NCBI RefSeq assembly: GCF_039534975.1
Contig: NZ_BAAAWH010000001.1
Span: forward strand, 496,001 to 560,000
Source: Microbacterium terregens
Lineage (GTDB): Bacteria > Actinomycetota > Actinomycetes > Actinomycetales > Microbacteriaceae
Length of the DNA stretch: 64,000 bases
Reading direction: 5' to 3'
Part shown: one piece after another, positions 38,424 through 61,426 of the stretch
Numbering within the stretch: the first letter of the stretch is position 1
Layout: every line of letters starts with the position of its first letter
The notes under the pieces: model-generated
What the model saw: only the letters and a program-made list of their open reading frames with translations
Told to the model about the DNA's origin: nothing
Databases searched by the model: none
Program-made: the position numbers and the translations under genes

Positions 38424-41400
38424 ATGAAGTCGTTCGCGTGGCTTCGTGCGCATCCGCGCGCGGTCGCATCGACCAGCGCCGTCACGGCGGCAGCGGTGAC
38501 CCTCACCACGATGGCATTCGTGTACCAGGGGTTCCCGACCACCGAGGTCGACCTGCACGACGGCGGGGTGTGGGTGACGAAGCAGTCCAGCCTGCTGGTG
38601 GGACACTTCAACCACGAATCGCAGGTGCTGGACGGCGCGCTGCGCACCACCGGTGATCAGTTCGACATCCTTCAGTCCGGGACCACCGTCTTCGTCGTGA
38701 ACGACAGCGACGGAACGGTCACAAGCGTCGACACCGCGATGGTCGCACTGACCGACTCGACCGACGTTCCGGCCGGTGCCGCTGTCGTGCTCGGCGGCTC
38801 GACCGTCGCGATCCTCGACCCCGCCTCGGGCGACCTGTGGGCGCTTCCCGCCGACGGCGTCGGCGCGTTCGAGGTGCAGGGCACGGACCCGCTTGCGTCG
38901 CTCGGCAAGGGTGCCGCCGTCACGGTGGGCGTCGACGGCACCGTCTACGCGGTCTCGGCGGAATCCGCAGAGCTCTACACGATCCGAATCGACGCCAACG
39001 GCGAGACGACCGATCCGCAGGTGCGCGCGATCGACGAGCTGCAGGCCGACGGCCCGGTGAGCATCACCGCCGTCGGTTCGACCGCCGTGGTACTCGACGC
39101 GGCGGCGGGCCGGATCTTCACCTCCGACGGCACCACCCTGCTGGTGCCCGGCGGCGAAGCGGCCGTGCTGCAGCAGCCTTCGGAGGCATCCGATGCGGTG
39201 AGTCTGTCGACCACGAGTGCTCTCGTCCGCGTGCCGTTGGATGGTTCGGAGCTCTCCGAGATCGGTTCGGGAGGCGTCGGCACGCCGGCTGCACCGGTCT
39301 GGCTGAAGGGCTGCGCGTACGGGGCGTGGTCGGGATCGTCGACCTTCGTTCGCGACTGCGTCGGCAAGGACGACGACCTCAAGAGCGACATCGACGGCGC
39401 CGACGAGACGTCGGTGCTTCGCTTCCGGGTCAACCGCGACGTGATCGTCCTGAACGACATCGTCGGCGGTGCCACGTGGATGGCCAGCGACAGTCTGCAG
39501 CGGGTGGACAACTGGAACGAGATCACCCCGCCCGAAGGCGACGCGGAAGAGGACGAGCAGACCACCGAGGAGACGGTCGAGACGACGCTGCCCGAGCGCA
39601 CCGACGTCAACACCGCGCCCATCGCGACCGACGACGAGTTCGGCGTCCGCCCCGGGCGCACGACCGTCCTGCCGGTGCTCGACAACGACACCGACGCGGA
39701 CGGCGACGTCCTGACGGCATCCGTCCCCGACGGGGACCCCGGCCTGGGTGCGATCCAGCCGATCAACAACGGCGCAGCCCTGCAGATCGCCGTCGCCGAC
39801 GACGGGTCCGGCAGCGATTCCTTCGTCTACGAGATCGATGACGGGCGCGGAGGCACCGACACCGCGACGGTGCGTCTGTCCGTGCACGACTGGAGCACGA
39901 ACGCCGGGCCGACGCAGAAGCGGATCACCACGGTCGCGGTGGAGGCCGGCGGCACGGTGTCGTACAACGTGCTGCCCGACTGGATCGACCCGGACGGCGA
40001 TGACGTCTTCCTCGCCGGGGTCACCCCGGCGGAAGGCGACGAGGCCGACTTCACCTCGGACGGGCGCATCACCTACCGCGCCATCGGCGCGACGCAGGGC
40101 AAGAAGGACGTCACCATTCTCGTCTCGGACGGCGAGAAGGTGACCGAGGGCACCGTGCGGTTCGACGTGCGCCCGGTCGGCTCCACGGTGCCGGTCACCA
40201 ACGCCGACCACGTCGTCGTGCGCGTCGGACAGACGGTCACGGTCGCGCCGCTGGCGAATGACACCAGCTCCAGCAGCGAGCCGCTGCGGCTCACGCGCGT
40301 CGACGAGATCGACGGCGCCACCATCGTGCCGGACTTCGCGAACAAGACGTTCTCGTTCCGCTCCGACGTCCCCGCCGTCTACTACGTGCAGTACCTCGTC
40401 TCGGCGGGCGCCAATGCCGTCCCCGGCCTGGTGCGCGTCGACGTCTACCCCGAATCGGAATCGGCGCTTCCGCCGGTCGCCGTCCGGGACGTCGCGCTCC
40501 TGCCCAGCGGCGGAGAGGTGCTGGTGAACGTCCTCACCAACGACAGCGACCCCGCGGGCGGCATCCTGGTCGTCCAATCGGTCACGCTGCCACCGAACTC
40601 CGGCATCGCCGTGGCGGTTCTCAATCACGAGACGCTGCGGATCAGCGACCAGTCCGCCCTCGGCGAGCAGGTGCGAATCGGATACCGGATCTCCAACGGG
40701 TCCCAGACGGCAGAAGGCGAGGTCATCGTGATCCCGGTTCCGGCGCCCGCGCAGCTGCGCCCGCCGGTCGCCAACGACGATCAGGCCGTCGTGCGCGCCG
40801 GCGACATCGTCACGATCCCGGTGCTCGAGAACGACTATCACCCGAACGGCGACACGATCCACGTCGCACCGGAGCTGATCCCGCCCCTCGTCTCTCCCGA
40901 GGACGGTGAGCTGTTCATCTCGCAGGACACGCTGCGCTTCCACGCCAGCGCCGAGCCGGGCACCGTCTACGCGACCTACGAGGTCATCGACAGCACAGGA
41001 CAGCGTGACGCCGGCTACGTCACCATCCAGGTGCTTCCGGTCAACGACGAGACGAACTCCGCGCCGCGCCCCCGCGACCTCACCGCCCGCGTGCTCAGCG
41101 GACAGCGGGTGCAGATCGCGATCCCGCTCGACGGGATCGACCAGGACGGCGACTCGGTCGAGCTCGTCGGCATCGCATCGGCGCCGACGAAGGGCCGCAT
41201 CGTCGAAACCGGGTCCAACTTCCTCGTCTACGAGGCGTTCGACGACTCCCACGGCGTGGACTCCTTCACCTACCGCGTCCGTGACCGCCTCGGCAAGGAG
41301 GCCACCGCTCCCATCCGGGTCGGCATCGCGCCGCCCGAAGCGACGAACCAGGCCCCGTACGCGGTCAAGGACTCCGTCATCATGCGTCCCGGCCGCACCG

Positions 41401-44548: not shown

Positions 44549-45520
44549 ATGACGATGACCCCCGAACAGGCTGCTTGGTTCCAGGGCACTTTCGCGCGCC
44601 TCGTCGACAACGTCGACCAGGCGCTCATGGGCAAGCCGCACGTGGTCAGCCTGGTGCTGGCGGCCATGCTCGCCGAAGGACACGTGCTGCTCGAGGACGC
44701 GCCGGGCACGGGCAAGACGAGCCTCGCGAAGGCTCTCGCCGCGACCGTGCAGGGCACCAGCAACCGCATCCAGTTCACGCCCGACCTGCTCCCGTCGGAT
44801 GTGACCGGGGTGACCATCTACGACCAGACCAGCCACCGGTTCGAGTTCCACCGCGGCCCGGTCTTCGCGTCGATCGTTCTGGCGGATGAGATCAACCGCG
44901 CGTCCCCCAAGACCCAGTCCTCGCTGTTGGAGGTCATGGAGGAGTCGCGGGTCACCGTGGACGGCGTGACGCACGAGGTGGGGCGCCCCTTCCTCGTCAT
45001 CGCGACGCAGAACCCCATCGAGCAGGCCGGAACCTACAAGCTGCCCGAGGCGCAGCTGGACCGCTTCCTGATCAAGACCTCGATCGGGTACCCCGACCTT
45101 GCCGTCGCCGAACGGATCCTGGCCGGAGCATCCGATCGCAACCCGTCGGCACACCTCGCCGCGATCATCACCACGGCGGCCGTGGCCGACATGGCAGATC
45201 TCGCCTCGACCGTCTTCGTCGAGCCCGCGGTCCTGCGCTATACCGCGCAGCTGGCCGAGGCGACCCGTGCGGACGACGCCGCGCAGGTCGGTGTCTCAGT
45301 GCGCGGATCGCTCGCGATCATCCGTCTGGCGAAGGTGTGGGCCGCCGTCCATGGCCGCCACTTCGTCCTGCCCGACGACATCAAGACCCTCGCACCGGCG
45401 GTGTGGACGCACCGGCTGGTGCTGGATCCCGAGGCGGAGTTCGCCGGCACGACGGCGCAGGCGGTCATCGCGCGCGTCCTCGAAAGCGTGGCAGCACCCC
45501 AGGCGAGGTCCGCGGCCTGA
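44549..45520 (+). CDS. MoxR-family AAA+ ATPase
   Basis: A 323-residue AAA+ protein. Walker A is EDAPGTGKTSLAKAL (~44-58), Walker B VLADEINRASPKTQSSLLEVMEE (~108-130), and sensor residues ATQNPIEQAGTYKLPEAQLDRF (~150-171). MoxR ATPases act as chaperones for maturation or assembly of partner proteins, often with DUF58 and transglutaminase-like neighbours, which is exactly the order here. ATG 44549 follows GAAGGA; ATG 44555 is 2 codons later. The last base of its stop is the A of the DUF58 ATG (TGATG). Confidence 0.95.
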   Translation: MTMTPEQAAWFQGTFARLVDNVDQALMGKPHVVSLVLAAMLAEGHVLLEDAPGTGKTSLAKALAATVQGTSNRIQFTPDLLPSDVTGVTIYDQTSHRFEFHRGPVFASIVLADEINRASPKTQSSLLEVMEESRVTVDGVTHEVGRPFLVIATQNPIEQAGTYKLPEAQLDRFLIKTSIGYPDLAVAERILAGASDRNPSAHLAAIITTAAVADMADLASTVFVEPAVLRYTAQLAEATRADDAAQVGVSVRGSLAIIRLAKVWAAVHGRHFVLPDDIKTLAPAVWTHRLVLDPEAEFAGTTAQAVIARVLESVAAPQARSAA

Positions 45521-46758
45521 TGACCGTCCATACACGGGGCGCGAAAGCGACGACGACGGAACAGGTGGGAGCCCTGGCATCCCGGCTGGCCCGGCGCGCG
45601 GGCGCGATCGCCTCCGTGGCGCGACCGGCGGCGTGGATCCTGATCCTCTCGGCGATCGCGCTGTGGACCGCAGGACAGCGGCTCGGGTGGCAGGAGCTGA
45701 CCGTGGCGGCCGTCATCGTCACCGTCGTGCTGGCGCTGTGCGCACTGTTCCTGTTCGGTCGCACGGCGTACGAGGTGACACTGGACCTCAATCGCACGCG
45801 CGTCATCGTCGGCGAGCGGGCGGTGGGAGCGCTCACGCTCTCGAACGCGGGCAGCCGCGCCATCCTGGCGTCCCGTGTCGTTCTGCCCGTGGGCAGCGGC
45901 CGCGGCGTCTTCGACGTGCGTCGGCTGGCGGCGGGTGACTCGGTGGAGGAGCTCTTCGCGATCCCGACCCAGAAGCGCGGCATCCTGCAGGTCGGACCCG
46001 TCGCGGTGCTGCGCGGCGACCCGCTGGGCCTGTTCGAGCGCATCCATCGGCGCGACTCTCCCGTCGACCTGTACGTGCACCCGCGGACCGTGCTCTTCGA
46101 AGGGCAGTCCCTCGGCTTCCTGCGCGACCTCGAAGGCCTCCCGGCGACCGATCTGTCGCCGGACGATGTCTCATTCCACGCGCTGCGGGAGTACCACCCC
46201 GGCGATGACCTGCGCCACGTGCACTGGAAGTCCACCGCCCGCACCGGAACCGTCATGGTGCGGCAGTACGAGGAGACGCGGCGTTCGCACTTCGTGATCG
46301 CGCTGTCGCGGCATCCCTCCGACTATCGCACCGCCGAAGAGTTCGAATTGGCCATCTCCGCCGCGGGATCACTCGGTCTGCGTGCGCTGCGCGACTCGCA
46401 GCGTGTTCAGGTGCGGGTGCAGGGCCGGGCGCTGCCGGCCGCGACGGGCAAGCAGTTCCTCGACTCGCTGGCCGGGCTCGAACATTCTGCCGCCCGGGAG
46501 GGCACGCTCGTGGATCTGGCCGGTTCGGTCGGCGCCACACTCGCAAGCGCCAGCGTGGTCGTGCTGGTGTGCGGCAGCAAGACCTCCGCCGAGCACGTGC
46601 GCTTGGCGTGTTCGCGTCTGCCGTTCGGCGCGCGGGTGCTCGCCATCGTGGCGGACGACGGTGCGACGCCGTCGCTGCGGCGCATCGGCGAAGCCGACGT
46701 CGTGACCGTCGGCGCGCTGGATCAGCTGTCGCGAGCCCTCGTGAAGGTGCTCGCATGA
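45520..46758 (+). CDS. DUF58 domain-containing membrane protein
   Basis: A 412-residue protein with two membrane segments at ~40-55 and ~62-83, a beta-rich extracytoplasmic part and the DUF58 core ALREYHPGDDLRHVHWKSTARTG (~220-240), the family's R.Y.pGDd.R.i.W.tsAR motif. It has a vWA-like C-terminal fold. DUF58 proteins are regularly encoded beside MoxR and are thought to be its client or membrane adaptor. Overlaps MoxR by 1 nt and the next gene by 4 nt (ATGA), so all three are translationally coupled. Confidence 0.9.
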   Translation: MTVHTRGAKATTTEQVGALASRLARRAGAIASVARPAAWILILSAIALWTAGQRLGWQELTVAAVIVTVVLALCALFLFGRTAYEVTLDLNRTRVIVGERAVGALTLSNAGSRAILASRVVLPVGSGRGVFDVRRLAAGDSVEELFAIPTQKRGILQVGPVAVLRGDPLGLFERIHRRDSPVDLYVHPRTVLFEGQSLGFLRDLEGLPATDLSPDDVSFHALREYHPGDDLRHVHWKSTARTGTVMVRQYEETRRSHFVIALSRHPSDYRTAEEFELAISAAGSLGLRALRDSQRVQVRVQGRALPAATGKQFLDSLAGLEHSAAREGTLVDLAGSVGATLASASVVVLVCGSKTSAEHVRLACSRLPFGARVLAIVADDGATPSLRRIGEADVVTVGALDQLSRALVKVLA

Positions 46759-49115
46759 ACGAACCTTCCGGACTCCGGGCACGCACCCGCGCGGCGGCAG
46801 CCGACGCGCGCAGGGTCCTCCCCGGTCGACGGTGGGGCCTGGACCTCGCCGCGGTCGCGTTGCTTCTCGCCGTTCCGATCATCGGCTTCTGGCCGACGTT
46901 CGAGAATGCCGGCTACCTCATCGCGGCTGTCGGCGGCACGGCGCTGGGCCTGCTGCTCGCCGCGCTCGGCACCCGTCTGCGCTGGGGACTGCTCCTGCTC
47001 GCAGGAACCACGGTGCTCGCCTACTTCGTCTTCGGCGCCGCTCTCGCCCTGCCCCACACGGCGTTCGCCGGCGTTATCCCGACGTTGGAGACGCTGCGGC
47101 AGCTGGCCGTCGGCACGGTCACCTCGTGGAAGCAGCTGCTGACCACCGTCGCGCCGGTCTCGGCATCCGATGGTCACCTCCTGGTCCCCTTCCTCCTCTC
47201 ACTCATCGCGGCAGTGCTGACGGCGAGCCTGGCGCTGCGGGCCCGCTCCGCAGCGTGGGCCCTGGTTCCCGCCGCCGCCTTCCTGGCGGTTCAGATCGCC
47301 ATCGGCACGTCGCAGCCGGCGGCTCCGGTGGTGCAGGGCATCGTCTTCGCCGTCGTGGCGATCGCCTGGCTCGCCGTCCGCCAGGCCTGGGCGCCCTCCG
47401 GAGCCGTCGTCGCCCTCGGCGAGGAAGGGTCGGCCTCATCCGGGGCCACGACCCGTCGTGTGCTCGCGGCCGGACTGATCGTCGCGGTCGCGGTCACGGC
47501 CGGCATCATGACCAGCGCCGTCACCGCGCCGGCCTCGCCGCGCTATGTGCTGCGAGACATCGTCATCCCGCCGTTCGACATCCGCGAATACCCCAGCCCC
47601 TTGCAGGCGTTCCGAGGGTATGTCCGAGATGCCGCGGAGGAGCCGCTGTTCACGGTCTCCGGGCTTCCGAAGGACGCCCGCGTGCGCGTGGCGACAATGG
47701 ATGCCTACAACGGCATGGTCTACAACGTGTCGGACGAGGGTGCCGGCTCGTCGAGCGCGTTCACCCCCGTGCGCAGCAACATGTCGGCGGACGCCGAGGG
47801 CACGCCGGTCACTCTGCGCGTCGAGATCGACGAGTACGACGGGGTGTGGCTGCCGGATGCCGGTGCGGTCACGAGCATCGCCTTCGACGGAGACCGCGCC
47901 GATGACCTCCGTCGCGCGTCGCACTACAACGAATCCACCGGCACCGCGGTGGTCACCTCGAAGCTTCGATCCGGCGACGCGTACACGCTGAACACGGTGA
48001 TCGCCTCGGTCCCGGATGACGGCACGCTGGCCGACGTGCCCTTCGCGCCGCTCAAGATGCCCACGTCGGAGGGAGTGCCCGAGGGGCTGGCGGACATCGC
48101 CTCGAAGGCCGTCACCGAGGCCACCACGCCGATCGAGCAGGTGCGTGCGCTGCAGACGATGCTCTCTCGTGACGGGTTCTTCAGCCACGGTCTCGAGGGC
48201 GAGGCGCTCTCGCGCGCCGGACACGGCGCGCAGCGCATCGCGTCCCTGCTCGGCGCCGACCAGATGGTCGGCGACGACGAGCAGTACGCCAGCTCGATGG
48301 CGCTCCTGGCCGGCGAGCTGGGCATCCCCGCCCGGGTCGTGATGGGCTTCTACCCCGACCAGGGAGAGGCCGCCGACGGCGTCTTCACCGCCACCGGCGA
48401 CTCGCTGCACGCATGGGTCGAGGTCGCCTTCGACAAGGTCGGCTGGGTGCCGTTCGATCCCACGCCCCCGGAGGACCAGCTGCCCAACGAGCAGACCACC
48501 AAACCGCGCGCGGATCCGAAGCCGCAGGTGCTGCAGCCCCCGCCCCCCGAGCAGGATCCGGTGGACCTGCCGCCGATGGTGCCCGACGATCGCGAGTCCG
48601 AAGATGAGGACGATGCCTCTGCGTGGCCGTGGGGTCCGTACGTCGTGATCGGCCTCATCACGCTCGGCATCCTCGCGCTGCTGGCCGCGCCCTTCATCCT
48701 GATAGCCGCGCTGAAGACGGTCCGCCGTCGCCGCAGGCGCGAGGCCGAACGCGCCTGGGACCGGATCACCGGAGGGTGGGAGGAGCTCGTCGATAGGGCG
48801 ACGGATTTCGGCACCCCGGTGCGACCCGGGGGCACGCGCACGGAAGAGGCCGGCGTGCTCGGCGCGGCCTTCACCCAGCCCGGCGTCGATACGCTGGCCC
48901 GCCGCGCCGACGCCGAGATCTTCGGCCCGAGCGAGCCGACCGCCGCCGACGTCGACGAATTCTGGCGACAGGTCGACGAGATCGTCGGCGGAATGGGCGC
49001 CGACCGTACACGGTGGCAGCGCCTGCGGGCGCGTTTCAGCGTGCGCTCTCTGCTGGCGGGCGCGCGCCTGCGATGGACACCTCAGCCGACTCAGAACCCG
49101 AAGGAGACCCGATGA
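46755..49115 (+). CDS. TgpA-like transglutaminase-fold membrane protein lacking the catalytic Cys
   Basis: A 786-residue protein with ~7 N-terminal membrane segments (~27-230), an extracytoplasmic domain with a transglutaminase core (~450-575), a Pro-rich linker, one more membrane segment (~636-660) and a charged cytoplasmic tail. In the active-site sequence GDDEQYA, residue 508 is Asp where the family has Cys (GDC-E). His552 (LHAWVEV) and Asp568 (FDPTP) are kept, as is GIPARVV. It is therefore likely not a protease or crosslinker in the usual way, and may be a structural or binding module. Start ATG 46755 overlaps the DUF58 stop (ATGA); its own stop overlaps the next ATG. Confidence 0.9.
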   Translation: MNEPSGLRARTRAAAADARRVLPGRRWGLDLAAVALLLAVPIIGFWPTFENAGYLIAAVGGTALGLLLAALGTRLRWGLLLLAGTTVLAYFVFGAALALPHTAFAGVIPTLETLRQLAVGTVTSWKQLLTTVAPVSASDGHLLVPFLLSLIAAVLTASLALRARSAAWALVPAAAFLAVQIAIGTSQPAAPVVQGIVFAVVAIAWLAVRQAWAPSGAVVALGEEGSASSGATTRRVLAAGLIVAVAVTAGIMTSAVTAPASPRYVLRDIVIPPFDIREYPSPLQAFRGYVRDAAEEPLFTVSGLPKDARVRVATMDAYNGMVYNVSDEGAGSSSAFTPVRSNMSADAEGTPVTLRVEIDEYDGVWLPDAGAVTSIAFDGDRADDLRRASHYNESTGTAVVTSKLRSGDAYTLNTVIASVPDDGTLADVPFAPLKMPTSEGVPEGLADIASKAVTEATTPIEQVRALQTMLSRDGFFSHGLEGEALSRAGHGAQRIASLLGADQMVGDDEQYASSMALLAGELGIPARVVMGFYPDQGEAADGVFTATGDSLHAWVEVAFDKVGWVPFDPTPPEDQLPNEQTTKPRADPKPQVLQPPPPEQDPVDLPPMVPDDRESEDEDDASAWPWGPYVVIGLITLGILALLAAPFILIAALKTVRRRRRREAERAWDRITGGWEELVDRATDFGTPVRPGGTRTEEAGVLGAAFTQPGVDTLARRADAEIFGPSEPTAADVDEFWRQVDEIVGGMGADRTRWQRLRARFSVRSLLAGARLRWTPQPTQNPKETR

Positions 49116-50323
49116 CCGGACGCACCGTCGCCCCCACCGTCGCCGCGCCGATCGGCCGCCGCGTCGGCGCCTACGCGATCGACCTCGCGATCCAGTACGC
49201 GATCGGCGGTGTCCTCGGCGGGATCTCCGTCGCGATCCTGTTCGCGCTCGGTCCCACCTGGAAGCGCGAGGCGCTCGCCGCGATGGTGCTGCTGCTCTGG
49301 GCGATCGTCGCCGTCGTCTCGCTGATCTGGCTGGTGGTCTACACGGCGATGCAGGGCGGCCGCGGGTCGCTCGGGCAGCGGGCGCGCGGAATACAGATTC
49401 GGGATGCCGCGTCCGACGCGCCGATCGGGTTCTGGCGTGCGCTGCTGCGCAACCTGGTCTGGGCGCTGGCCGGGTCGATCGTCGTCGGCTATTTCTCGCC
49501 CCTGTTCGATTCGAGCGGTCGCCGGCAGGGCTGGCACGACATGGCGTCCCGGAGCGTCGTCGTGGACCGCAAGGCGATGGACGCCGCGGCCTCCGTCCCC
49601 CCGCCGGTGCCGCCCGCACCCGTCGCGAACCCCTACCTGCCGCCCCCCGCCGGTGCGCCGGCCGCTGGTGACGCGCCCGTGGTGCCTTCCGTGACGGGGC
49701 TCGGCCCCGCCCCGGCGGCCCCATCGCTCACTCCGGCGGCGCGGGTTGTCGTGCCCGCGGCCCCGATCCCCTCGACCGGTCTCATCTCGCATGTGCCCGG
49801 CGTCGCCGGATCGGCTCCTGCCGCTGCGGCGACTTCCGCGGCTGCCTCCGGGTTTGCTGTCCCGGCGGCGCCGGCCGCGCCGGTGCCCGTTCCGCCCCCC
49901 TCCGGAACCGCGGTCGCCGCACCGGCTCCCCCGACCACGGGCGAGAACGTCGACGAGACGCGGGCGGCGGCATCCGCTCCCGCGCATCGCGCGGACGAGG
50001 CGGCGGCGGTCACGGTCCTGACGTGGGACGACGGCACCCGCATCGCCGTGTACGGGCGCACGCTGTTCGGGCGCAACCCGGCGACCGAAGAGGGCGCCGC
50101 CCGTGTCGCGATGCGGGACGAGACGCTGTCACTGTCGAAGACGCACTTCGAGATCGGCGGCGACGCGGCGGGGCCGTGGATCATCGACCGGCACTCCACC
50201 AATGGCAGCGCGCTCGTGCGCAACGGCTCGCCGCAGCGACTGATCGCCGGAGCCCAGACCAGCCTCCGCCCGGGCGACCGACTCGAATTCGGCGACCGCA
50301 GCCTGGAAGTGGGAACCTCGTGA
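49112..50323 (+). CDS. RDD membrane protein fused to an FHA domain
   Basis: A 403-residue protein. The RDD domain (~10-150: RRVGAYAIDLAIQYA, GQRARGIQIRD, three membrane segments) is joined by a ~150-residue Pro/Ala/Val linker to a C-terminal FHA domain (~305-400; YGRTLFGRNP, SLSKTHFEI, HSTNGSAL), whose conserved G-R, S-x-x-H and N-G residues are present. FHA domains bind phospho-Thr, so this links the membrane to the operon's kinase. ATG 49112 follows AAGGAGA and overlaps the upstream stop (ATGA); its stop is in the GTGA that starts the phosphatase. Confidence 0.9.
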   Translation: MTGRTVAPTVAAPIGRRVGAYAIDLAIQYAIGGVLGGISVAILFALGPTWKREALAAMVLLLWAIVAVVSLIWLVVYTAMQGGRGSLGQRARGIQIRDAASDAPIGFWRALLRNLVWALAGSIVVGYFSPLFDSSGRRQGWHDMASRSVVVDRKAMDAAASVPPPVPPAPVANPYLPPPAGAPAAGDAPVVPSVTGLGPAPAAPSLTPAARVVVPAAPIPSTGLISHVPGVAGSAPAAAATSAAASGFAVPAAPAAPVPVPPPSGTAVAAPAPPTTGENVDETRAAASAPAHRADEAAAVTVLTWDDGTRIAVYGRTLFGRNPATEEGAARVAMRDETLSLSKTHFEIGGDAAGPWIIDRHSTNGSALVRNGSPQRLIAGAQTSLRPGDRLEFGDRSLEVGTS

Positions 50324-51162
50324 ACGCCGCACCCATCACCGTCGCGCACGGGTCGGCCACCGACACCGGTCTGCGACGCCGGATCAACGAGGACTCGTTC
50401 CTCGCCGCCCCGCCGCTGTTCCTCGTCGCCGACGGCATGGGCGGCCACCAGGCCGGTGAAGTGGCGAGCATGCTCGTCATCGAAGAGTTCGCGCGGCTGG
50501 CGGGGCTGCCCAGCGTGACCATCGAACAGGTGCAGCTCGCGCTGGCTCACGCCCGCCGTCGCGTGGCCGAAGTGCCGCTGCCTCCCGGCGCCGGCGCGGG
50601 CACGACGCTGTCGGGCGTGGTGATCGCGAGCGTCGACGGCGAGGGCTACTGGCTGGCGATCAACCTGGGCGACTCCCGCACCTATCGGCTCAGCGGCGGA
50701 GTGCTCGAGCAGATCAGCGTGGACCACTCGGTCGTGCAGGAGCTGATCGACAGCGGCGAGCTGGACGAGCTGTCGGCCACGACGGACTCGCGCCGCAACG
50801 TCATCACCCGGGCGATCGGCGGCGGCAGCGACGCCGAGCCCGACTACTGGCTGATCCCCGCGGACGAGGGAGACCGTCTGCTGGTGTGCTCGGACGGCCT
50901 GTCGGGCGAGCTCGACCGCGCCGCGATCGAAGCGATCCTGGGCGCCGAGGCGCACCCTCAGGCGGCGGCGACCCGGCTGGTGCACGAGGCGATGCTGCGC
51001 GGCGGTCGGGACAACATCACGGCGATCGTCGTGGACGCCATCGAGGTGCTCAGCCGCGAGCACGGTTGCCGTGATCGGGACACTCTGCCGGTGGGCGCGG
51101 CCGTCGAGGACGTGGATACGGACACGCGGCCCCGCGTGGATGCGAGAGGTGGCAGTCGATGA
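50320..51162 (+). CDS. PP2C-type Ser/Thr protein phosphatase
   Basis: A 280-residue PPM phosphatase. Metal-binding motifs are RINEDSFL (E24, D25), LVADGMGGHQAGE (D38), LAINLGDSRTYRL, LVCSDGLSGELD and GRDNITAIVVDA. All expected Asp residues are present, so it should be active. It lacks a membrane segment. It most likely reverses phosphorylation by the operon's kinase. GTG 50320 starts inside the previous stop (GTGA), and its own TGA shares ATGA with the next gene. Confidence 0.95.
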   Translation: MNAAPITVAHGSATDTGLRRRINEDSFLAAPPLFLVADGMGGHQAGEVASMLVIEEFARLAGLPSVTIEQVQLALAHARRRVAEVPLPPGAGAGTTLSGVVIASVDGEGYWLAINLGDSRTYRLSGGVLEQISVDHSVVQELIDSGELDELSATTDSRRNVITRAIGGGSDAEPDYWLIPADEGDRLLVCSDGLSGELDRAAIEAILGAEAHPQAAATRLVHEAMLRGGRDNITAIVVDAIEVLSREHGCRDRDTLPVGAAVEDVDTDTRPRVDARGGSR

Positions 51163-52480
51163 GCGGAATCGTTCGCTACGCCCCGGGGCGGGCCCATGTC
51201 GTGGTCACGCCTCACGGTCTGGTCGTCGTGGGGGGCGAAGTCTCCTCCGCACTTGTCGCCCGGCTGTGGGAAGAGGTCTCCGCGGGCGGGGGACTGGCCG
51301 CCGTGCTGGAGGCGCTCACCGGAGCATTCGGCACCTCCCTGTCCGCGATCCCTCCTTTCGTGGTCGCGCTCTCCGAACAATCCGCCGTGCGGCTCGCCGT
51401 CCGCGGATCGCTGAGCGTGCGCGTCGTGGGCGGCGCCGGTACCGAGGTGATCTCGGGTGCGGGGGTGACGACCTGGTCCGAGCGCGTGATCGCGGCCGTC
51501 ACACGGGTGGAGATCGACGTGCGTGCGGATGCCGCATCCCCGACTCTTCCGGTCGGCGACGGCGTCGTGCTGGCCTCGGCCGTGGAATGGCTGCCGGTCC
51601 CGGCCGCAGCGCCCGACCCTGAGCCGGTCGCGCCGCGCGAACCGGAGCCGGACCGCCCCGCCATGGCGCCCGTCGTACCGCCCGCGTCGCCGCCTGCTCC
51701 ACGCGGACCGTGGTCCGCGTTCGACGCCGAGTCGCCGACGCCACGGCCCGACGCCGCCGCACTCATCGATTCCGCCGCAGTGTCCTCGCTCACCGACGCC
51801 GACACGCTCCTGCCGCCCGACTCCACACGCGGCGTCGGCGAGAACGATGCGGGCACGCCGCCCGCGGACGAGTCCGCGACGGGCGGGTACGACCACCTCT
51901 GGGGGGCCACCGTGGCGCGGGTCGTCGAGGACGCCGCAGTGCGGAACGAAGAGGGCGAAGAGGGGAAAGAGGCCGAGGAACACGACGATGACGCTGCCGC
52001 CGCCGGCGACCACGACGGCGCGACGGTCACCGTCGCACAGGCGCGGGCGCTTCGTGACAGTCGTCCGAGTGTCGAGCGCACCGACCAGCCCGCCCCGCCA
52101 CCGCTGGCACCGCCGCGGCCGCCGGCCCCCGGGCGCGTGCGCGTGTCCACCGGCCAGGTGCTCACGCTCGACCGCACCGTCGTGATCGGGCGCCGCCCCC
52201 GCTCCACCCGCGTGACCGGCACCGACCTGCCCCACCTCGTCGCCGTCGACAGCCCGCAGCAGGACATCTCGCGCAGTCACGTCGAGCTGCGCGCCGAGGG
52301 CGACAGCATCGTGGCCATCGACCTGCATACGACGAACGGCACCACTCTGCGTCGCTCCGGGGTCGACCCGATGAGACTGCACCCGGGGAGCCGACCGTCG
52401 TCGTGCCCGGGGACGTCATCGACCTGGGTGATGACATCACCGTCGTCATCGAGTCCCTCGCGACCGAGGAGATCGGGTGA
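51159..52480 (+). CDS. FHA-domain protein, apparent 1-nt frameshift near its 3' end
   Basis: The first ~400 residues read normally: an N-terminal ~130-residue region I do not recognise, a long acidic/Pro-rich linker, and a C-terminal FHA domain (GRRPRSTRV, DISRSHVELRAEG, HTTNGTTLRR). At 52385-52388 (a GGGG run) the original frame leaves the FHA sequence. One extra G restores EPTVVVPGDVIDLGDDITVV, the expected last strands, and a TGA at 52478-52480 that overlaps the kinase GTG (GTGA), as in every other junction of this operon. Without the shift the frame runs on to 53360 through the kinase gene. Sequencing error is the simplest cause; slippage or a true mutation is possible. Confidence 0.85.
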
Positions 52481-54090
52481 ACGCCAAGCGGACCCCGATG
52501 ACGCCGCCCGACCTGCCCGGGTTCACCTACGTCGACATCCTGGGCTCGGGCGGCTTCGCCGACGTGTACCTCTACGAGCAGCACCTGCCCCGCCGCCGCG
52601 TGGCGGTCAAGGTCCTGCTGATGGACCGGATCTCGACGACGTCGGTCGCGGAGTTCACCGCCGAGGCGAACGTCATGGCGATGCTCTCGACGCATCCGGC
52701 GATCGTGACGATCTACCAGGCCGGGGTCGCCGGCGACGGTCGCCCCTACCTCGTGATGGAGTACTGCCCCAAGCCGAATCTCCAGGTCCGCTACCGACGC
52801 GAGCCGTTCTCCGTCGCGGAATCCCTGCGCGTCGGCATCCAGGTCGCCGCCGCGGTGGAGACCGCGCATCGCGCCGGCGTCCTGCACCGCGACATCAAGC
52901 CCGCGAACATTCTTGTCACGGAATACAACCGTCCCGCGCTCACCGACTTCGGTATCGCGTCCACGACGAGCGCGGCCGCCGAATCGGCGGGACTGTCGAT
53001 TCCCTGGTCGCCGCCGGAGTCCTTCGCCGACGTTCCGCGCAGCGACCAGCGCTCGGACGTCTACGCCCTCGGCGCGACGGTCTACTCGCTGCTGGCGGGC
53101 CGATCCCCGTTCGAGCTGCAGGGGCAGCGCAACAACGGCGTCGATCTCATCCAGCGCATCGAGACCATGCCGCTCGCCTCGCTGGGACGCGCCGATGCGC
53201 CCGCATCACTGCAGCACGCGCTCGAGCGCGCGATGTCGAAGGCCTCCGTCGACCGGTACGACAGCGCCCTCGCATTCGGGCGGGCGCTGCAGAAGGTGCA
53301 GATCGAACTGTCGCACTCGGTCACCCCGATCGACATCCTCGACGACCACGTTCCGGATGACGCGGTCGCGGAGGAGGACGACGGGCTCACCCGTGTCCGA
53401 GGCGTCGTCAGCATCAATCCCGAGACCACTCCGGCCGCCGGCTACACGCGGCCGTCCGCGACCACCGCCGCCGTTCCGCCCCGGTCCGATCCCGTGGCCG
53501 CGTGGGCAGATCCGGTCGTGTCCGAAACGGTCCGCCGTGCTCCCGTCGACGAGACGGTCCGACCCGCAGCGGCGGCCGCGTCCGCTCCGGAGCTCGGCGA
53601 GACCCTTCGGCGTGACCCGGTCGCGCTCGAGCCGGAACCGTCCGAGCCCGCCGCGCCCTCCGCGACCGGGCGGTCACGGAAGGCGCTCTGGGTGAGCCTG
53701 GGCCTCGCCGGCGCAGCACTGCTGGCCGTGGTGATCGGCGTCTCGCTGCCCGGCATCCTCAACGGGGGGACGGCGTCGCCGCAGCAGACGGCGGCAGAGA
53801 CGTCGGAGCCGATGAACCCCGTGGCGGGAGGGATCGCCGCGCCGACGGACCTGGCCGGCGCGGCCGTCCCGGACGGCGTCGTGTTCACGTGGACCAACCC
53901 GAAGCCCGAGGAAGGCGACCGCTACGCGTGGGGCCTGGTGACCCGGGCCGATGAGGAGCCGAGCTTCGCGACGATCGACGAGCCGACCGTCACGGTGCCG
54001 GCCGACCCCTCGGGCCAGACCTGCATCGAGGTCATCGTGGTGCGCTCGACAGGGCAGTATTCGGACGCGATTCGCGAGTGTGCGCCGTGA
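52477..54090 (+). CDS. Transmembrane Ser/Thr protein kinase
   Basis: A 537-residue Hanks-type kinase. The N-lobe has the glycine loop ILGSGGFADVYLYEQ and Lys45 in RRVAVKVLL; the C-lobe has HRDIKPANI (H137-R-D139), DFG (D157) and the IPWSPPESF activation segment. A ~125-residue Pro/Ala-rich juxtamembrane linker (~280-400) leads to one membrane segment (~402-424) and a ~110-residue extracytoplasmic Fn3-like domain (GAAVPDGVVFTW) ending in a Cys pair. No PASTA repeats. It should phosphorylate FHA partners in the operon. GTG 52477 overlaps the FHA gene stop. Confidence 0.94.
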   Translation: MNAKRTPMTPPDLPGFTYVDILGSGGFADVYLYEQHLPRRRVAVKVLLMDRISTTSVAEFTAEANVMAMLSTHPAIVTIYQAGVAGDGRPYLVMEYCPKPNLQVRYRREPFSVAESLRVGIQVAAAVETAHRAGVLHRDIKPANILVTEYNRPALTDFGIASTTSAAAESAGLSIPWSPPESFADVPRSDQRSDVYALGATVYSLLAGRSPFELQGQRNNGVDLIQRIETMPLASLGRADAPASLQHALERAMSKASVDRYDSALAFGRALQKVQIELSHSVTPIDILDDHVPDDAVAEEDDGLTRVRGVVSINPETTPAAGYTRPSATTAAVPPRSDPVAAWADPVVSETVRRAPVDETVRPAAAAASAPELGETLRRDPVALEPEPSEPAAPSATGRSRKALWVSLGLAGAALLAVVIGVSLPGILNGGTASPQQTAAETSEPMNPVAGGIAAPTDLAGAAVPDGVVFTWTNPKPEEGDRYAWGLVTRADEEPSFATIDEPTVTVPADPSGQTCIEVIVVRSTGQYSDAIRECAP

Positions 54091-54839
54091 CCGCCGCCGG
54101 GAAGGGCGCCACGAAGGCCGCGAGCAGTGATGCGCTCATCGTCGAGTTCGCCGGCGAGGAGTTCACGGTCGTCCCGGGAGACGTCTTCACGGTGGGACGC
54201 GAGGGCGATCTCGCCATCGACGACAACCTCTTCCTGCACCGCCACTTCCTCACGATCGAGTACGTCGAGAGGCTCTGGCTGCTCTCCAACGTCGGCAGCC
54301 GACTGGCGGCGACCGTCACCGACTCCGGCGGCCGCGTGCAGGCGTGGCTCGCTCCCGGCGCGCGCCTGCCGCTGGTGTTCGCTGCGACCTCGGTCGTCTT
54401 CAGCGCCGGCCCGACCACCTACGACCTGGTCCTGCACCTCGATGCCCCGGCCTTCCGTGAGATGCAGCCGCGCGACGAGGACGGTGGCCTGAGCACGATC
54501 GGCGACGTCCCGCTCACTCCCGCGCAACGGCAGATGATCCTGGCGCTGGCCGAGCCCATGCTGCGCCGCGACGGCACCGGCATGAGCGAGCTTCCCACGT
54601 CGGCGCAGGCCGCTGAACGGCTGGGATGGACCCTGACGAGGTTCAACCGCAAACTCGACAACGTCTGCGACAAGCTCGACCGCAGCGGCGTTCCCGGCAT
54701 GCGCGGCGGGGTGCGCTCCTTCGCCACGAACCGTCGCGCCCGCCTCGTCGAGCACGCGATCTCGACGCGGCTGGTCACGCGCGAAGATCTTCCGCTGCTG
54801 GATGCACCGCGGCCTTCGGCCGGAGAGGACGACTCGTGA
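54087..54839 (+). CDS. FHA-like protein with C-terminal winged-helix-like region
   Basis: A 250-residue soluble protein. Residues ~15-125 look like an FHA domain (DVFTVGREGDLAIDDNLFLHRHFLTIEYV, LLSNVGSRLAATV) with the G-R and R/H positions but no clean S-x-x-H, so phosphopeptide binding is uncertain. Residues ~145-225 (LTPAQRQMILALAEPMLRR, TSAQAAERLGWTLTRFNRKLDNVCDKL) resemble a helix-turn-helix of the response-regulator/sigma-like kind. It could connect the kinase to transcription of the operon. GTG 54087 and the following GTG 54836 both overlap stops (GTGA). Confidence 0.8.
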   Translation: MTAAGKGATKAASSDALIVEFAGEEFTVVPGDVFTVGREGDLAIDDNLFLHRHFLTIEYVERLWLLSNVGSRLAATVTDSGGRVQAWLAPGARLPLVFAATSVVFSAGPTTYDLVLHLDAPAFREMQPRDEDGGLSTIGDVPLTPAQRQMILALAEPMLRRDGTGMSELPTSAQAAERLGWTLTRFNRKLDNVCDKLDRSGVPGMRGGVRSFATNRRARLVEHAISTRLVTREDLPLLDAPRPSAGEDDS

Positions 54840-57800
54840 AGCTCAAGTTCACGCTCCAGCGAGCGGGCGGACCGACCGACCTGGAGGTCACCGCAGACGG
54901 CACCTCCACCGTCGGGGACCTCGCTCGCACGCTCGTGCTCGCGGATCCGACCGCGGAGGGGATCGATCCCGGACTGGTCACGCTGGCCGCGTTCGAGGCC
55001 GGCGGTCCGCGTGTGGTGGCACCCGATCGCGCGGTGGGCGAGTCCGGGATCCGATCCGGCACGACCCTGCAGGTCACCCCGGCGCCGGATTACACCGGCG
55101 ACGACGCGCCCGCCGCGGTGCTGCGCATTCTCAGCGGGGCGCACGCGGGCACCGAGCGCCCGCTGCGTTCGGGGTCGAACATCGTGGGGCGCGACCCCGG
55201 CGCCGACATCGTGATCGATGACCCGCTCGTGTCCAAGCGACACGCGCGCATCAACGTCGACGCGGTCATCGAGATCATCGACCTCAACTCGGCCAACGGC
55301 CTGCTCATGGGCGGCGAGCAGGTCGCGCGGACCAGCCTCGGACCGGCCGATGTCCTGGTGCTGGGCTCGACCGAAGTGTCGATCATTCCGCTCAACCGGC
55401 CCGGTGCGACGCACGCAGCCAGTCCCGTGGTCGAGATCGTCCGCTCGCCTCGTGTGGTGCCCCGCTACGAGGACGCCGAGTTCACGGCGCCCAAGGCGCC
55501 TCGTCCCCCGGCCCAGTCGCGGCTGCCGGTCATCGCTCTGATCGCGCCGCTCATCATGGGCGCGGTGCTGTGGGCGTTCACCCAGTCGATCCTCGCCGTC
55601 ATCTTCATCGCGCTGAGCCCGTTGATCATGATCGCCGCCTACATCGACAATCGGGTGGGCGCGCGCAAGGAGCACAAACGCGCGGTGCAGCAGTTCGACG
55701 CTGGAATGGAGCACTTCGACGGCGTCATGCTCGCCGAGCAGATCAAGGAGCGTGCGGTTCGCGATGCCGAGATCCCGGCGCTCGCCGAGGCGCTCTCGTC
55801 ACTGTCGTCGTGGGGGGATCTCACCTGGACGCACCGACCGGAGCACCCCGGCTTCCTGAGCGCACGGCTGGGCACCGGAACGCTCCCGTCGCGCGCCACG
55901 ATCGAGCTCAGCGGCACCGACGACACGCTTCCGGTGTTCACGGAGCGGCTGTTCGAGCTGCGGGACCGCTTCGCCGTCATCGACGACGTCCCGGTGGTCG
56001 CGCACCTGCGCGAGTCCGGCAACGTCGGGATCGCGGGCGAGCGCGGGCAGGCGGATGCCGCGGCCCGCGCGTTCGTGATGCAGCTGGTCGCGACACATTC
56101 GCCGGCCGAACTCGTCGTGGCCGCCTTCACCTCGCCGAGCACGCGCGCCGCGTGGTCCTGGCTCGAATGGCTCCCCCACACCGGTTCCGTGCACAGCCCC
56201 CTCGACGGCGCTCATCTCGCGGCGAATCCCGGCACGGGCGCCGCGCTGCTGTCCCGGCTCGAGGGGCTCGTCGAGGATCGTGCCGGTGAGGGCGCGGCAT
56301 CCGCGCGTGGCCCGATCGAGAGCGGGGACAAGCAGCAGATCACCGCGCCGCGCATCCCGGCCGTGGTCGTGGTCGTCGAGGACGACGCCTCGGTGGATCG
56401 TGCCCGGCTCACACGGCTGGCCGAGCGCGGCCCCGACGCCGGCATCCACCTCGTCTGGGTGGCGCCGAAGGCGGGCGCGATCCCCGCGGCCTGCCGCACG
56501 TTCCTGTCGGTGGATTCGGTCGCCGACGACACCGCGGCCGGCCTGGTCCGCCGCGGCCTGTCGTCCACCCCGGTACGGGTGGAACTGCTGGATGAAGGCT
56601 CCGCCGTCGCGTGGGCTCGCGTGCTGGCTCCGACGGTGGATGCCGGCACCCCGATCGACGACGAGTCCGACCTGCCGCGATCGGTCTCATACATCGACCT
56701 GGCCGGCAGCGACATCGGCGGGGATCCCGCCGCGATCGTGGACCGGTGGCGGGAGAACGACTCGATCACCCCGCGCGACGGCCGCGCACCCCAGCGACGG
56801 GCCAAGGAGGCCAACCTGCGCGCCCTGGTCGGCTACGCCGGTGCCGGCGCCCTGCACCTGGACCTGCGCACGCAAGGACCGCACGCGCTGGTCGGCGGCA
56901 CCACCGGCGCCGGCAAGTCGGAGTTCCTCCAGTCGTGGGTGCTGGGCATGGCCGCGGCGCACAGCCCCGATCGCGTGACCTTCCTGTACGTCGACTACAA
57001 GGGCGGCTCGGCGTTCGCGGACTGCGTCGATCTGCCGCACACCGTCGGACTGGTCACCGACCTGTCGCCGCACCTCGTACGCCGCGCACTCACGTCGCTG
57101 CGCGCCGAGCTGCGGTACCGGGAGCATCTGCTCAATCGCAAGAAGGCGAAGGACCTCATCTCGCTCGAGCGCACCGGGGACCCCGAGGCGCCGCCGAGCC
57201 TGATCATCGTGGTCGACGAGTTCGCCGCGCTCGTCAACGAGGTTCCGGAGTTCGTCGACGGAGTCGTCGATGTCGCCCAGCGCGGGCGATCGCTCGGGCT
57301 GCACCTGATCCTTGCGACCCAGCGACCGGCCGGCGTGATCAAGGACAACCTCCGCGCGAACACGAACCTCCGCGTGGCCCTGCGCATGGCCGACGCCGAA
57401 GACTCCAGCGACATCCTCGGCATCCCCATGGCCGCGCACTTCGACCCGTCGATCCCCGGCCGTGGCGCCGCCAAGACCGGACCCGGGCGGATCGTGCCGT
57501 TCCAGGCCGGGTACGTCGGAGGCTGGACCACGGGCGAGAAGCCGCGACCGCAGATCGACATCCGCGAACTCGACTTCGGTGCCGGCGCGTCATGGGATCT
57601 CCCCGAGCCCGAGGCCGCCGCTCCCGAGGACCCCGGTCCGACCGACATCGCCCGCATCGTCCGGTCGGTGCGCGCCGCGGCATCCGATCTGTCCATCCCC
57701 GCGCCGCGGCGACCCTGGCTCGACGAGCTGGCCGCCGCCTACGACCTGGCGCGTCTGCCGAGCCCCCGCACGGACGAGCAGCTGCTGCTGGGCGTGCTCG

Positions 57801-59414: not shown

Positions 59415-59684
59415 ATGGCCGTTTGGGGTCTTGATGTTCAGCAGGTCCGTCAGCTCTCGCAGCAGCTCAACGCGAAGGCGAGCGACATCCAGCAGGTCCT
59501 GTCGCAGCTCACTTCGCAGCTGAACTCGACCCAGTGGACGGGTCCGGACGCCGAGCAGTTCCGCAGCGACTGGTCCGGTCAGCACACCGCCGCGCTCAAG
59601 CAGGTCATCGCGGCGCTGCAGGAAGCCGCGCAGAAGGCTTCGGCCAACGCGTCGGCCCAGGAGAGCACGTCCTCCTCGCTCTGA
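59415..59684 (+). CDS. WXG100-family protein (EsxA-like)
   Basis: An 89-residue helical hairpin protein with the turn motif W41-T-G43 between two amphipathic helices and a Ser/Ala-rich tail. Family members (~100 residues) are small substrates of type VII secretion and dimerise. No C-terminal YxxxD/E motif is seen (the tail is QESTSSSL). It lies 157 nt after the EccC-like ATPase, its presumed motor, with a strong ribosome binding site (AAGGAG) and a hairpin just after the stop, suggesting a high-level short transcript. Confidence 0.95.
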   Translation: MAVWGLDVQQVRQLSQQLNAKASDIQQVLSQLTSQLNSTQWTGPDAEQFRSDWSGQHTAALKQVIAALQEAAQKASANASAQESTSSSL

Positions 59685-59697
59685 TCCGCAGGTGACG

Positions 59698-59723: not shown

Positions 59724-59791
59724 CTCTGCGCTCCATCAACATCGAGCACTCGTTCGCGAGGTCTCACTCAACGCCGGCGGAAGAGGGTGCC

Positions 59792-60901
59792 ATGGGGGTC
59801 TACGGAGCCGACATCGCGCAGCTGCGCGGCAGCGCGACGGAGCTCGATCGCGCCGCGGGAACCCTCGAATCGATCTCGACCCTGCTCGGCGGCGAACTGA
59901 CGCGTGCACCGTGGCACGGGGCTGATGCTGTCGCCTTCCGCGCGTCCTGGGACACGGACTACTCACGCCGGATCGTCGACGCCGCCACCCGCCTGCGGGA
60001 CGCGGCGCGGTCGCTGCGCTCGAACGCCGGCGACCAGGAGCAGACCAGCGCGTCCGGAACCGGCAGCCTCGGCGGTGCCGCCCCGGGCGGCGGGTCCCAC
60101 ACGGGCGGCGGCTCGAACACCGGCGGCGGGTCCGGCGCCGGCGATGGATCAGGCTCGCAGGGGGACGACAGCGCCGGCGGAGCGCAGGGCGGCGGAGTCG
60201 ACGGGCGCGATCCCGGCACCACCGAGGAGATCGGCCTGGGCGCGAGCGGTGAGGTGACCCCTGGGCAGGCGAGCGGTCGCGCCGCGCTCAGCGCGCAGTT
60301 CGAAGGCAACTGGGATGCCGCGGGGGGCACGGTGTCGCGCGAAGGCGACTACGGACTGGGCGTGAAGGGTGAGGCCGGCTGGGAGTTCGGGTTCGGCGAC
60401 GAAGAGGACGTCGTCGACCCGCGCGATGTCACCTCGCACCGCGGCGACGACATCGACCAAGGGCAGCCCGGTCTCTCCATCGGCGGCCAGGCCAGCGGCC
60501 AGGCCGGGGCGTGGGCCGAGGACTCGATCTCGTACTCCAGCGGCATCGCCGAGGTCGGTGCCAGCTACGATGCCATGGCCGGAGCGCAGGCCGAGGTCGG
60601 CGGTGGGCTGACCGCCGGTCCGGATGGGCTTCAGGCGGGTGTCACTGCCGGCGCGTTCGCCGGCGCCGAGATCAAGGGCGCCGTGCAGGCCGACATCGGC
60701 GGGGTGGGCGGCGAGATCGAAGCGGGCCTGCGCGCCGGCATCGGCGCCGACCTCAGCGCGACCGCGGAGATCGGTCTGGATCGCGTAGATTTCGAGTTCG
60801 AGGTGGGCGTCGCGGTGGGTGTCGGCTTCACCATCAAGCCCTCCATCAGCTTCAGCCCCAGCGAGATCGCGGGCAACATCGCGGACTTCTTCGCGCGATA
60901 G
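59792..60901 (+). CDS. WXG-type protein with glycine-rich linker and alanine/glycine-rich C-terminal domain
   Basis: A 369-residue protein. Residues 1-~85 are a WXG100-like helical hairpin with W41-H-G43 at the same residue number as in the preceding WXG100 protein. A ~60-residue Gly/Ser/Asp linker (~88-150) follows. The C-terminal ~210 residues alternate small and hydrophobic residues (LTAGPDGLQAGVTAGAFAG, IGADLSATAEIGLD), a repetitive pattern seen in large actinobacterial WXG-linked proteins of unknown role. It is a candidate secreted effector or cargo of the adjacent system. No toxin motif is recognised. ATG 59792 follows GAAGAGGG. Confidence 0.82.
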   Translation: MGVYGADIAQLRGSATELDRAAGTLESISTLLGGELTRAPWHGADAVAFRASWDTDYSRRIVDAATRLRDAARSLRSNAGDQEQTSASGTGSLGGAAPGGGSHTGGGSNTGGGSGAGDGSGSQGDDSAGGAQGGGVDGRDPGTTEEIGLGASGEVTPGQASGRAALSAQFEGNWDAAGGTVSREGDYGLGVKGEAGWEFGFGDEEDVVDPRDVTSHRGDDIDQGQPGLSIGGQASGQAGAWAEDSISYSSGIAEVGASYDAMAGAQAEVGGGLTAGPDGLQAGVTAGAFAGAEIKGAVQADIGGVGGEIEAGLRAGIGADLSATAEIGLDRVDFEFEVGVAVGVGFTIKPSISFSPSEIAGNIADFFAR

Positions 60902-60949
60902 CTTCCAGGCGGGCGCCCGACGGTTCCCCGACAGAGAGTGAGACAAGTC

Positions 60950-61426
60950 ATGCCGCAGGCATCCTTCCCCAGCGACGCATTCCCCGCGCTGCCCACGGTG
61001 GCGGTCGACCATCCTGCCGAGTGGGTCGCACGCCCCGTCGACGGCACGCTCCTGGCCGTGATCCACGACCTCGGCCCTGACGCGTTCTCGCCGAACGTCG
61101 TCCTGGGTGTGACCCGCCACGCGGCCGGTCACACCCTCGAGCTGGCTGCCGCCGCCGTCGCCGAGTATGTGGAACGGCTGCCCGAAGTGGCGCCGGTCGA
61201 CGCTGCCCGCGTCGACTTCGGCGATCGCGCCTGGTGGGTGTCGGAATTCGCCTACGCGAGCACGGCCGCCGGAACGGTCGTGCAGGTCGTCGCGGTCACG
61301 GTGGTCGACTCCGGCCCGGTCTCCGACGTCGTACGCGTGACCGGCACAGCCTCGACGGCCGACTACGAGGCCTCGCTCCCCGTCATCCGCCGCATCATCG
61401 CCAGCACTCGCGTCGGAACCCGCTGA
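60950..61426 (+). CDS. Small LpqN/DcrB-like protein
   Basis: A 158-residue soluble protein without a signal peptide or lipobox. The pattern WVARPVDGTLLAVIHDL, FSPNVVLGVTR and a C-terminal DYEASLPVIRRIIASTRV is like the LpqN/LpqT/DcrB fold, which in mycobacteria is exported and linked to lipid or secretion functions. Homology is judged by eye and is weak. ATG 60950 is preferred; 60938 is the alternative start. It ends the type VII-like operon, where it could be a substrate chaperone for the WXG proteins; this is inference. Confidence 0.65.
   Translation: MPQASFPSDAFPALPTVAVDHPAEWVARPVDGTLLAVIHDLGPDAFSPNVVLGVTRHAAGHTLELAAAAVAEYVERLPEVAPVDAARVDFGDRAWWVSEFAYASTAAGTVVQVVAVTVVDSGPVSDVVRVTGTASTADYEASLPVIRRIIASTRVGTR

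Follow-up and report, generated by a model that had tools for sequence, protein, structure and literature searches.

Can a type VII secretion system (T7SS) be built around a single motor protein and joined, within one operon, to a phosphorylation and envelope module known from bifidobacteria? This question is raised by a locus of 13 genes (positions 38424–61426) in a 64,000-nucleotide stretch of the Microbacterium terregens genome (3.57 Mb, G000), which is called the window here; other genomes and loci carry G and L numbers. The locus encodes a giant surface protein, MoxR, DUF58 and TgpA-like proteins, a phosphatase, a kinase, several FHA proteins, a T7SS ATPase and WXG100-type proteins (Table 1). 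All 13 genes listed in an earlier note, made from the sequence alone, have been recovered at their coordinates by open reading frame calls and Pfam/NCBIfam scans, and the interpretation offered there is supported in part, namely in composition, linkage and the absence of EccD and EssB. The locus is a real, conserved and distinct T7SS variant, and its control and envelope half is PFNA. The reading preferred here, with a probability of about 0.6, is that of a distinct T7SS subtype with a one-polypeptide motor (ubiquitin-like domain, phosphothreonine-type FHA domain, two transmembrane segments and three NTPase domains), operonically joined to a PFNA-type module and assembled through phosphorylation.

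The motor and the type of secretion system

Pfam assigns FtsK_SpoIIIE and FHA domains to the ATPase, and the NCBIfam models EssC (TIGR03928, 494 bits), EccCa (TIGR03924, 337 bits) and EccCb (TIGR03925, 321 bits) match it, all of them under their curated cut-offs; the earlier note had described it as an EccC-like ATPase with its own FHA domain, and both features have been found. The best solved relative is 4nh0, filed as FtsK/SpoIIIE, which we take to be an EccC, followed by YukB and EccC5. A role as DNA translocase has been considered and is unlikely, because the FtsK model (48 bits) is far outscored by EssC and EccCa and because WXG100-type genes follow downstream. The presence of a T7SS-type ATPase together with WXG100-type proteins agrees with the type VII secretion locus originally claimed. 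No second match to the ATPase was found in its own genome at E 1e-60 (4 of the 24 candidates scored), and its relatives at 76–83% identity carry the name Microbacterium.

In a first structure model of ATPase residues 1–200 all matches were to FHA domains, and residues 1–86 were therefore modelled separately. This second model has a beta-grasp fold (pLDDT 93.0), and its listed PDB matches are largely ubiquitin-like folds. According to the model, the ATPase starts with a ubiquitin-like domain, in place of EsaB/YukD or of the ubiquitin-like domain of EccD. Bifidobacteriaceae TsdC likewise carry an N-terminal ubiquitin-like domain, so that the ubiquitin-like subunit reported missing in T7SSd would be explained as the motor's own N-terminus. 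The pair of transmembrane segments and the several NTPase domains are shared with the EssC of T7SSb and the EccC of T7SSa. On the other hand, EssC is described with two N-terminal FHA domains in PMC11217815, whereas the window ATPase has one ubiquitin-like and one FHA domain, and the three EccC proteins aligned begin downstream of the FHA region.

The genome has also been searched for subunits of the classical systems, which the earlier note had declared absent from this stretch. EccD gave no match anywhere in G000, and the identical search found EccD in G431, G482 and G579; EssB/YukC gave none either, with a control search positive in Bacillus subtilis. For these two the claim holds, whereas EccB gave no match in a search that itself lacked any positive control match. 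In a FastTree phylogeny of 93 ATPases (without Olsenella uli TsdC, EssC and TseC), a close clade formed by the window, L006–L052, L066–L080 and L110 is separate from Bifidobacteriaceae TsdC and from EccC, with a split support of 0.984. The T7SSd-type ATPases are not one clade in this tree, since they are interrupted by EccC, which has a long branch. G117 contains ATPases of both types, as does, judged by identity, G044. The phosphothreonine signature of the FHA domain, GR..S..H..N, is kept in 45 of the 46 close-clade loci (the exception, L011, is cut by a contig end) and in 0 of the 13 distant ones.

Among the named systems, T7SSd is described as a minimal actinobacterial T7SS in which an FHA-bearing EssC-type ATPase and WXG100 go with a Ser/Thr kinase in the membrane and a giant Ig-like protein of the envelope, and phospho-control has been proposed for it (Garrett, Higginson and Palmer, 2024, PMC11217815). 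To this set the window adds PP2C, RDD-FHA, an FHA scaffold, the so-called FHA-wHTH protein, MoxR, DUF58 and TgpA. The FHA motif of the window ATPase is intact and that of the Bifidobacteriaceae TsdC examined is degenerate, contrary to the general statement on TsdC in PMC11217815. For the comparison, TsdD, TsdH, TsdI and TsdC of the bifidobacterial-type locus L082 were assigned by gene order and size; the nearest named relatives of its TsdC are Bifidobacterium (62%), Actinomyces (59%) and Alloscardovia (54%). TsdH and TsdI gave no match at E 1 in a phmmer search of the window open reading frames of at least 40 aa, BLASTP found no homology between TsdI and the giant protein (E 0.34), and the membrane kinase of the window has a similarity of 66 bits to TsdD of L082. 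Judged by these comparisons, the locus would work like T7SSd and would not be a member of it, because its ATPase stands apart from Bifidobacteriaceae TsdC and TsdH and TsdI have no homologue in the window. As far as sequence can tell, the locus is therefore without the tested features of T7SSa (EccD), T7SSb (EssB) and T7SSd (TsdC grouping, TsdH, TsdI). Another likeness, by description only, is with T7SSe, which has a kinase, a PPM phosphatase, an extra FHA protein, a second WXG100, a giant protein and a ubiquitin-like protein; it differs in being limited to Bacillota and in its separate TseB and DUF6382-FHA TseJ, and MoxR and DUF58 are unmentioned in the text of PMC11217815.

The PFNA-type half and its linkage to the ATPase

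In the PFNA operon, as given in PMC8430577, the genes pkb2, fn3, aaa-atp (MoxR), duf58 and tgm are followed by the optional prpC, a hypothetical gene and fha. The order giant protein–MoxR–DUF58–TgpA is identical in the window, and the kinase gene of the bifidobacterial operon lies upstream of fn3. The family of the PFNA bifidobacteria (f4) has no genome among the 108 FHA-wHTH matches. The PFNA core, that is, kinase, fn3-bearing giant, MoxR, DUF58 and TgpA-type transglutaminase (TGM), has been found together in the window by Pfam; the same core is matched in L092/L093 and L096, and likewise in L094, L095 and L097, where the kinase is outside the view. The giant protein is the counterpart of the PFNA FN3. 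It had been called an anchored cadherin-like/Fn3 protein, and its domains agree with that name (Big_9 nine times, Cadherin_4/5, fn3 three times). The anchoring is less certain, since an LPXTG-like motif is lacking in the window copy and its N-terminal segment is only weakly hydrophobic, but several relatives carry a clear N-terminal hydrophobic helix. Giant, MoxR, DUF58 and TgpA genes occur together in 26 loci (11/60, 9/20 and 6/22 in three locus sets), with a weak giant match in two of them (L067, 23 bits; L106, 56 bits).

The TgpA protein is degenerate, as the earlier note had it, the nucleophile Cys of the window copy being an Asp. The Cys column was set by alignment with the solved TgpA 6g49, presumably that of Pseudomonas aeruginosa, whose aligned Cys we take to be catalytic. 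In none of the 34 rows does this column contain a Cys (the residue is D, E, Q, S or A), and 19 of them have also lost the His. The domain is, on the evidence of these residues, a pseudo-enzyme that has been conserved, and the protein published as a 'transglutaminase' is no exception in its five Bifidobacteriaceae rows. An assembly of the giant protein by MoxR, DUF58 and TgpA is plausible because of the block in 26 loci and of the dead TgpA. The TgpA matches of G193, G244 and G349 each contain one TGA inside the matched stretch, and long open frames cover most of it.

Within the locus, nine genes from MoxR to the ATPase (MoxR, DUF58, TgpA, RDD-FHA, PP2C, FHA protein, kinase, FHA-wHTH, ATPase) form a chain in which seven of the eight junctions overlap by 4 nt and the remaining one by 1 nt, as had been noticed before. 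The overlap between the FHA gene and the kinase (4 nt, kinase start GTG) requires a shifted reading frame in the FHA gene: from 51159 its frame breaks near 52385 (window positions 52380–52392), at a short G run, beyond which the FHA domain runs on in the other frame up to the likely stop at 52480. Linkage between the MoxR side and the ATPase side, which had been proposed as a check, has been found across the family and order samples, with the FHA-wHTH gene as marker of the module. Among 120 genomes of the family sample, 37 have both a close-clade ATPase and the marker, adjacent in 8, within 20 kb in 13, far apart in 8 and on different contigs in 8; the pairs linked within 20 kb show several arrangements. 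In the order sample (248 genomes), 59 have both, with the marker directly upstream on the same strand in 39, within 12 kb in 9, far in 5 and on different contigs in 6. The close clade was counted to E 7.5e-200 in the family and to E 4.2e-276 in the order, some ATPase match being present in 79/120 and 138/248 genomes, respectively. Chance adjacency has been rejected (Fisher 1e-11 and 7e-17, values that ignore relatedness). The two samples overlap in some genomes, and the loci were chosen from matches, not at random; 23 distant ATPase rows were chosen because their genomes carry the marker, which deprives a Fisher value for them of meaning. From the order sample, 8 FHA-wHTH rows of 7 genomes were dropped (G272, split in two, and G241, G229, G265, G287, G176 and G216 at E 1e-12 to 1e-15), and G081 was scored as 'other contig' though both of its genes lie at contig ends.

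The pairing is also seen with other ATPases. For example, in two genus-mates, G094 and G350 (L098, L099), the PFNA block is retained and is followed after about 4 kb by an ATPase of T7SSd type. In Bifidobacteriaceae, too, PFNA lies in the vicinity of T7SSd, and in G193 PFNA and T7SSd are divergent with about 13.5 kb between them. The distance between TgpA and the ATPase is 32–33 kb in G193, G244 and G349, close relatives that count once. G136 has a TsdI homologue at a distance of about 4 kb from PFNA. Finally, MoxR–DUF58–TgpA and a kinase stand near a related ATPase in two loci of other orders or classes, L105 and L106.

Proposed mechanism and competing explanations

The kinase/phosphatase pair claimed for the locus appears catalytically intact in both partners. 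The Lys, HRD and DFG of the kinase are invariant in all 26 or 27 orthologues that have sequence at these positions, and the phosphatase keeps DGMGG in 26/26 and the His after it in 24/26. The label 'FHA-wHTH' stands in part: all 28 copies share the FHA-like G, R and N-G, but neither Pfam nor NCBIfam matches the protein and the usual Ser is Leu in 28/28, for which reason it may not bind phosphothreonine. In the RDD-FHA alignment about half of the rows are gapped in the G, R, S and H columns. The FHA scaffold carries HDGxT[VI] in 17/22 copies and L[WF][GD]xT[VI] in 14/19 longer copies, and TR[IVL]R is found in 20/28 kinase tails. These motifs were chosen after inspecting the sequences, so shuffle counts overstate them; they are candidate phospho-docking motifs. 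A generic [DE]T[VILR] enrichment in 27 kinase linkers (16 observed, 7.8 expected) has been dropped in favour of the specific motifs.

The following sequence of events is proposed. In response to an outside cue, the kinase would phosphorylate the Thr of HDGxT/LWGxT in the FHA scaffold and that of the kinase's own juxtamembrane motif; through their FHA domains, the ATPase and the RDD protein would then dock on phosphothreonine, and the exporter would be assembled, a process reversed by PP2C. MoxR, DUF58 and TgpA would serve the giant protein as a membrane assembly chaperone. The giant might span the wall and be a conduit or an adhesin, a role that has been proposed for TsdI, and cargo or chaperones would be provided by the WXG100-type proteins and the small protein encoded last.

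Several observations weigh against this reading. The pair is far apart or on other contigs in 16/37 (family) and 11/59 (order) genomes, a counted FHA-wHTH match is absent in 10/47 and 14/73 ATPase genomes, and of six genus-mates with both genes one has them adjacent, two within 9 kb, two far and one on another contig. A TgpA-like gene occurs in 103/120 genomes, so TgpA is not specific to the module. YukD is not the top structural match of the N-terminal domain, talin F0 and other ubiquitin-like folds scoring equal or higher. The FHA split is not clean, given that the signature is degenerate in Bifidobacteriaceae TsdC and that four loci beyond the close clade (L081, L106, L107 and L108) have it when judged by eye. 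WXG100 matches stay under the curated cut-offs. Some of this would fit an independent PFNA, an envelope and assembly module (a wall-sensing kinase and a MoxR complex maturing a giant adhesin) with the ATPase as a frequent operon neighbour that shares expression and is not mechanically coupled. G122 and G151 have PFNA and yield no match to the window ATPase at E 1e-100, a weak absence because G136, despite its TsdI homologue, is also without match; and the marker occurs without a close-clade ATPase in 12/49 family genomes and is unlinked in many. The gene overlaps, the linkage repeated in different arrangements and with different ATPase clades, and the phosphothreonine-type FHA of the ATPase itself argue against independence, which is considered rather unlikely.

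Plain T7SSd with extra genes would account for the similar ATPase architecture (ubiquitin-like domain, FHA, transmembrane and NTPase), for the kinase, the giant Ig-type protein and WXG100, and for the occurrence in Actinomycetota; with the ATPase placed apart from Bifidobacteriaceae TsdC, neither TsdH, TsdI nor giant–TsdI similarity found in the window, and both ATPase types coexisting in G117 and, by identity, in G044, it is improbable. More improbable still is that the window copy does what has been proposed for bifidobacteria, where PFNA would sense host immunity, FN3 having been reported to bind TNF-alpha selectively and a part in host signalling having been suggested (PMC8430577). The module is found in many families of the order, the ATPase relatives are named Microbacterium, Herbiconiux, Cellulosimicrobium and Brachybacterium, and the 'transglutaminase' lacks its Cys in every row. 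The family of the PFNA bifidobacteria (f4) has no genome among the 108 FHA-wHTH matches.

Each of the two halves is in print already, the T7SSd-type minimal T7SS (PMC11217815) and the PFNA operon (PMC8430577), and it is the link between them that is new. The terms MoxR, DUF58, PFNA, fibronectin and transglutaminase do not occur in the main text of PMC11217815, nor type VII, FtsK and WXG100 in PMC8430577, nor secretion, WXG and FtsK in PMC6803598; the review PMC12067865 likens the mycobacterial moxR operon to PFNA. In open-licence PMC (supplements excluded), searches turned up no paper that connects PFNA and type VII secretion, and none on type VII secretion and forkhead-associated domains in Microbacterium. 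Also new are the ubiquitin-like domain on the ATPase and on TsdC, the FHA motif kept in the close clade and the absence of the TgpA Cys. Since the pairing recurs in many relatives, the gut bifidobacterial operon to which host sensing has been ascribed may encode half of a secretion machine. A broader proposal, put forward tentatively and at somewhat under even odds, is that PFNA modules and T7SSs with ubiquitin-FHA-ATPases would form one phylum-wide, phospho-switched secretion superfamily, in which the bifidobacterial 'host-sensing' operon would be the control and envelope half of an exporter, the dead transglutaminase a MoxR-driven assembly scaffold, DGxT/TRxR a phospho-code read by the motor FHA, and the T7SSd ubiquitin-like subunit the motor N-terminus. 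If true, this would join the PFNA and type VII secretion literatures, give a function to ATPases that are widespread in actinobacteria under the names 'FtsK/SpoIIIE domain-containing' and 'cell division protein FtsK', offer a direct test case for T7SS control by a kinase/phosphatase pair, account for the 'missing' subunit of T7SSd and correct the idea of PFNA TGM as an active transglutaminase.

Gene layout and downstream proteins

Table 1. Genes and domains of the locus, in window coordinates (TM, transmembrane segment; pThr, phosphothreonine).
Feature	Position	Strand	Remarks
Giant surface protein, 2029 aa	38424..44513	+	Weakly hydrophobic N-terminal segment, Big_9 x9, fn3 x3 or more, Cys-containing C-terminal region
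MoxR AAA+ ATPase (AAA_3), PFNA aaa-atp	44549..45520	+	Pfam
DUF58 protein	45520..46758	+	Pfam; 1-nt overlap with MoxR
TgpA-like membrane protein (Transglut_core, TgpA_N)	46755..49115	+	Nucleophile Cys replaced by Asp
RDD membrane protein, C-terminal FHA	49112..50323	+	Pfam; window copy with pThr motif G-R, S-x-x-H, N-G
PP2C phosphatase (PP2C_2)	50320..51162	+	Metal-binding motifs present
FHA protein (scaffold)	51159..52480	+	Linear motifs L[WF][GD]xT[VI], HDGxT[VI]; frame break near 52385
Membrane Ser/Thr kinase (Pkinase)	52477..54090	+	Lys, HRD, DFG present; juxtamembrane TR[IVL]R
FHA-like protein, possible C-terminal winged helix (by eye), 'FHA-wHTH'	54087..54839	+	
T7SS ATPase, 1473 aa	54836..59257	+	Predicted ubiquitin-like domain, FHA, 2 TM, three P-loop NTPase domains
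Predicted ubiquitin-like domain of ATPase, N-terminal aa 1-86	54836..55093	+	
FHA domain of ATPase, about aa 90-188	55103..55399	+	Pfam
WXG100-type protein	59415..59684	+	Weak WXG100 match
Long protein, WXG100-like N-terminus, Gly/Ala-rich C-terminus; candidate substrate	59792..60901	+	
Small protein, weakly LpqN-like; candidate substrate or chaperone	60938..61426	+	

The first gene after the ATPase matches WXG100 with E 5e-5 and 23.9 bits (cut-off 27.3) and TIGR03930 with E 1.7e-7, also under the cut-off, and has WTG in its sequence; the WXG100 match of the N-terminus of the following long protein is weaker still. In many other close-clade loci, genes of about 100 aa (clusters c1 and c3, WXG type by eye) and a gene of roughly 450 aa (c2, after the ATPase in 20 loci) are found downstream. 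The c2 protein of L059 has a C-terminus that looks ADP-ribosyltransferase-like by eye, on account of a motif. The long window protein and its counterparts in L017 and L012 are WXG-headed or related proteins with Ala/Gly-rich repeats and a shared SFSP tail, and such proteins are possibly membrane-active. The 'LpqN-like' label of the last gene has proved weak (LpqN E 0.28), and its profile fits best the uncharacterised solved protein 3lyd (E 7e-31). A parallel to it is the 206-aa protein of L082 (18641–19261), LpqN-like by eye and placed beside the Bifidobacteriaceae T7SSd WXG genes, with no detectable sequence match between the two. Finally, an orphan WXG100 gene (G000:C1:2837244-2837498; L001, L003; 58 bits) lies between a histidine kinase gene and groEL, and its product is similar (up to 33.5 bits) to WXG100-type proteins found close to ATPases of the T7SSd type in related genomes.

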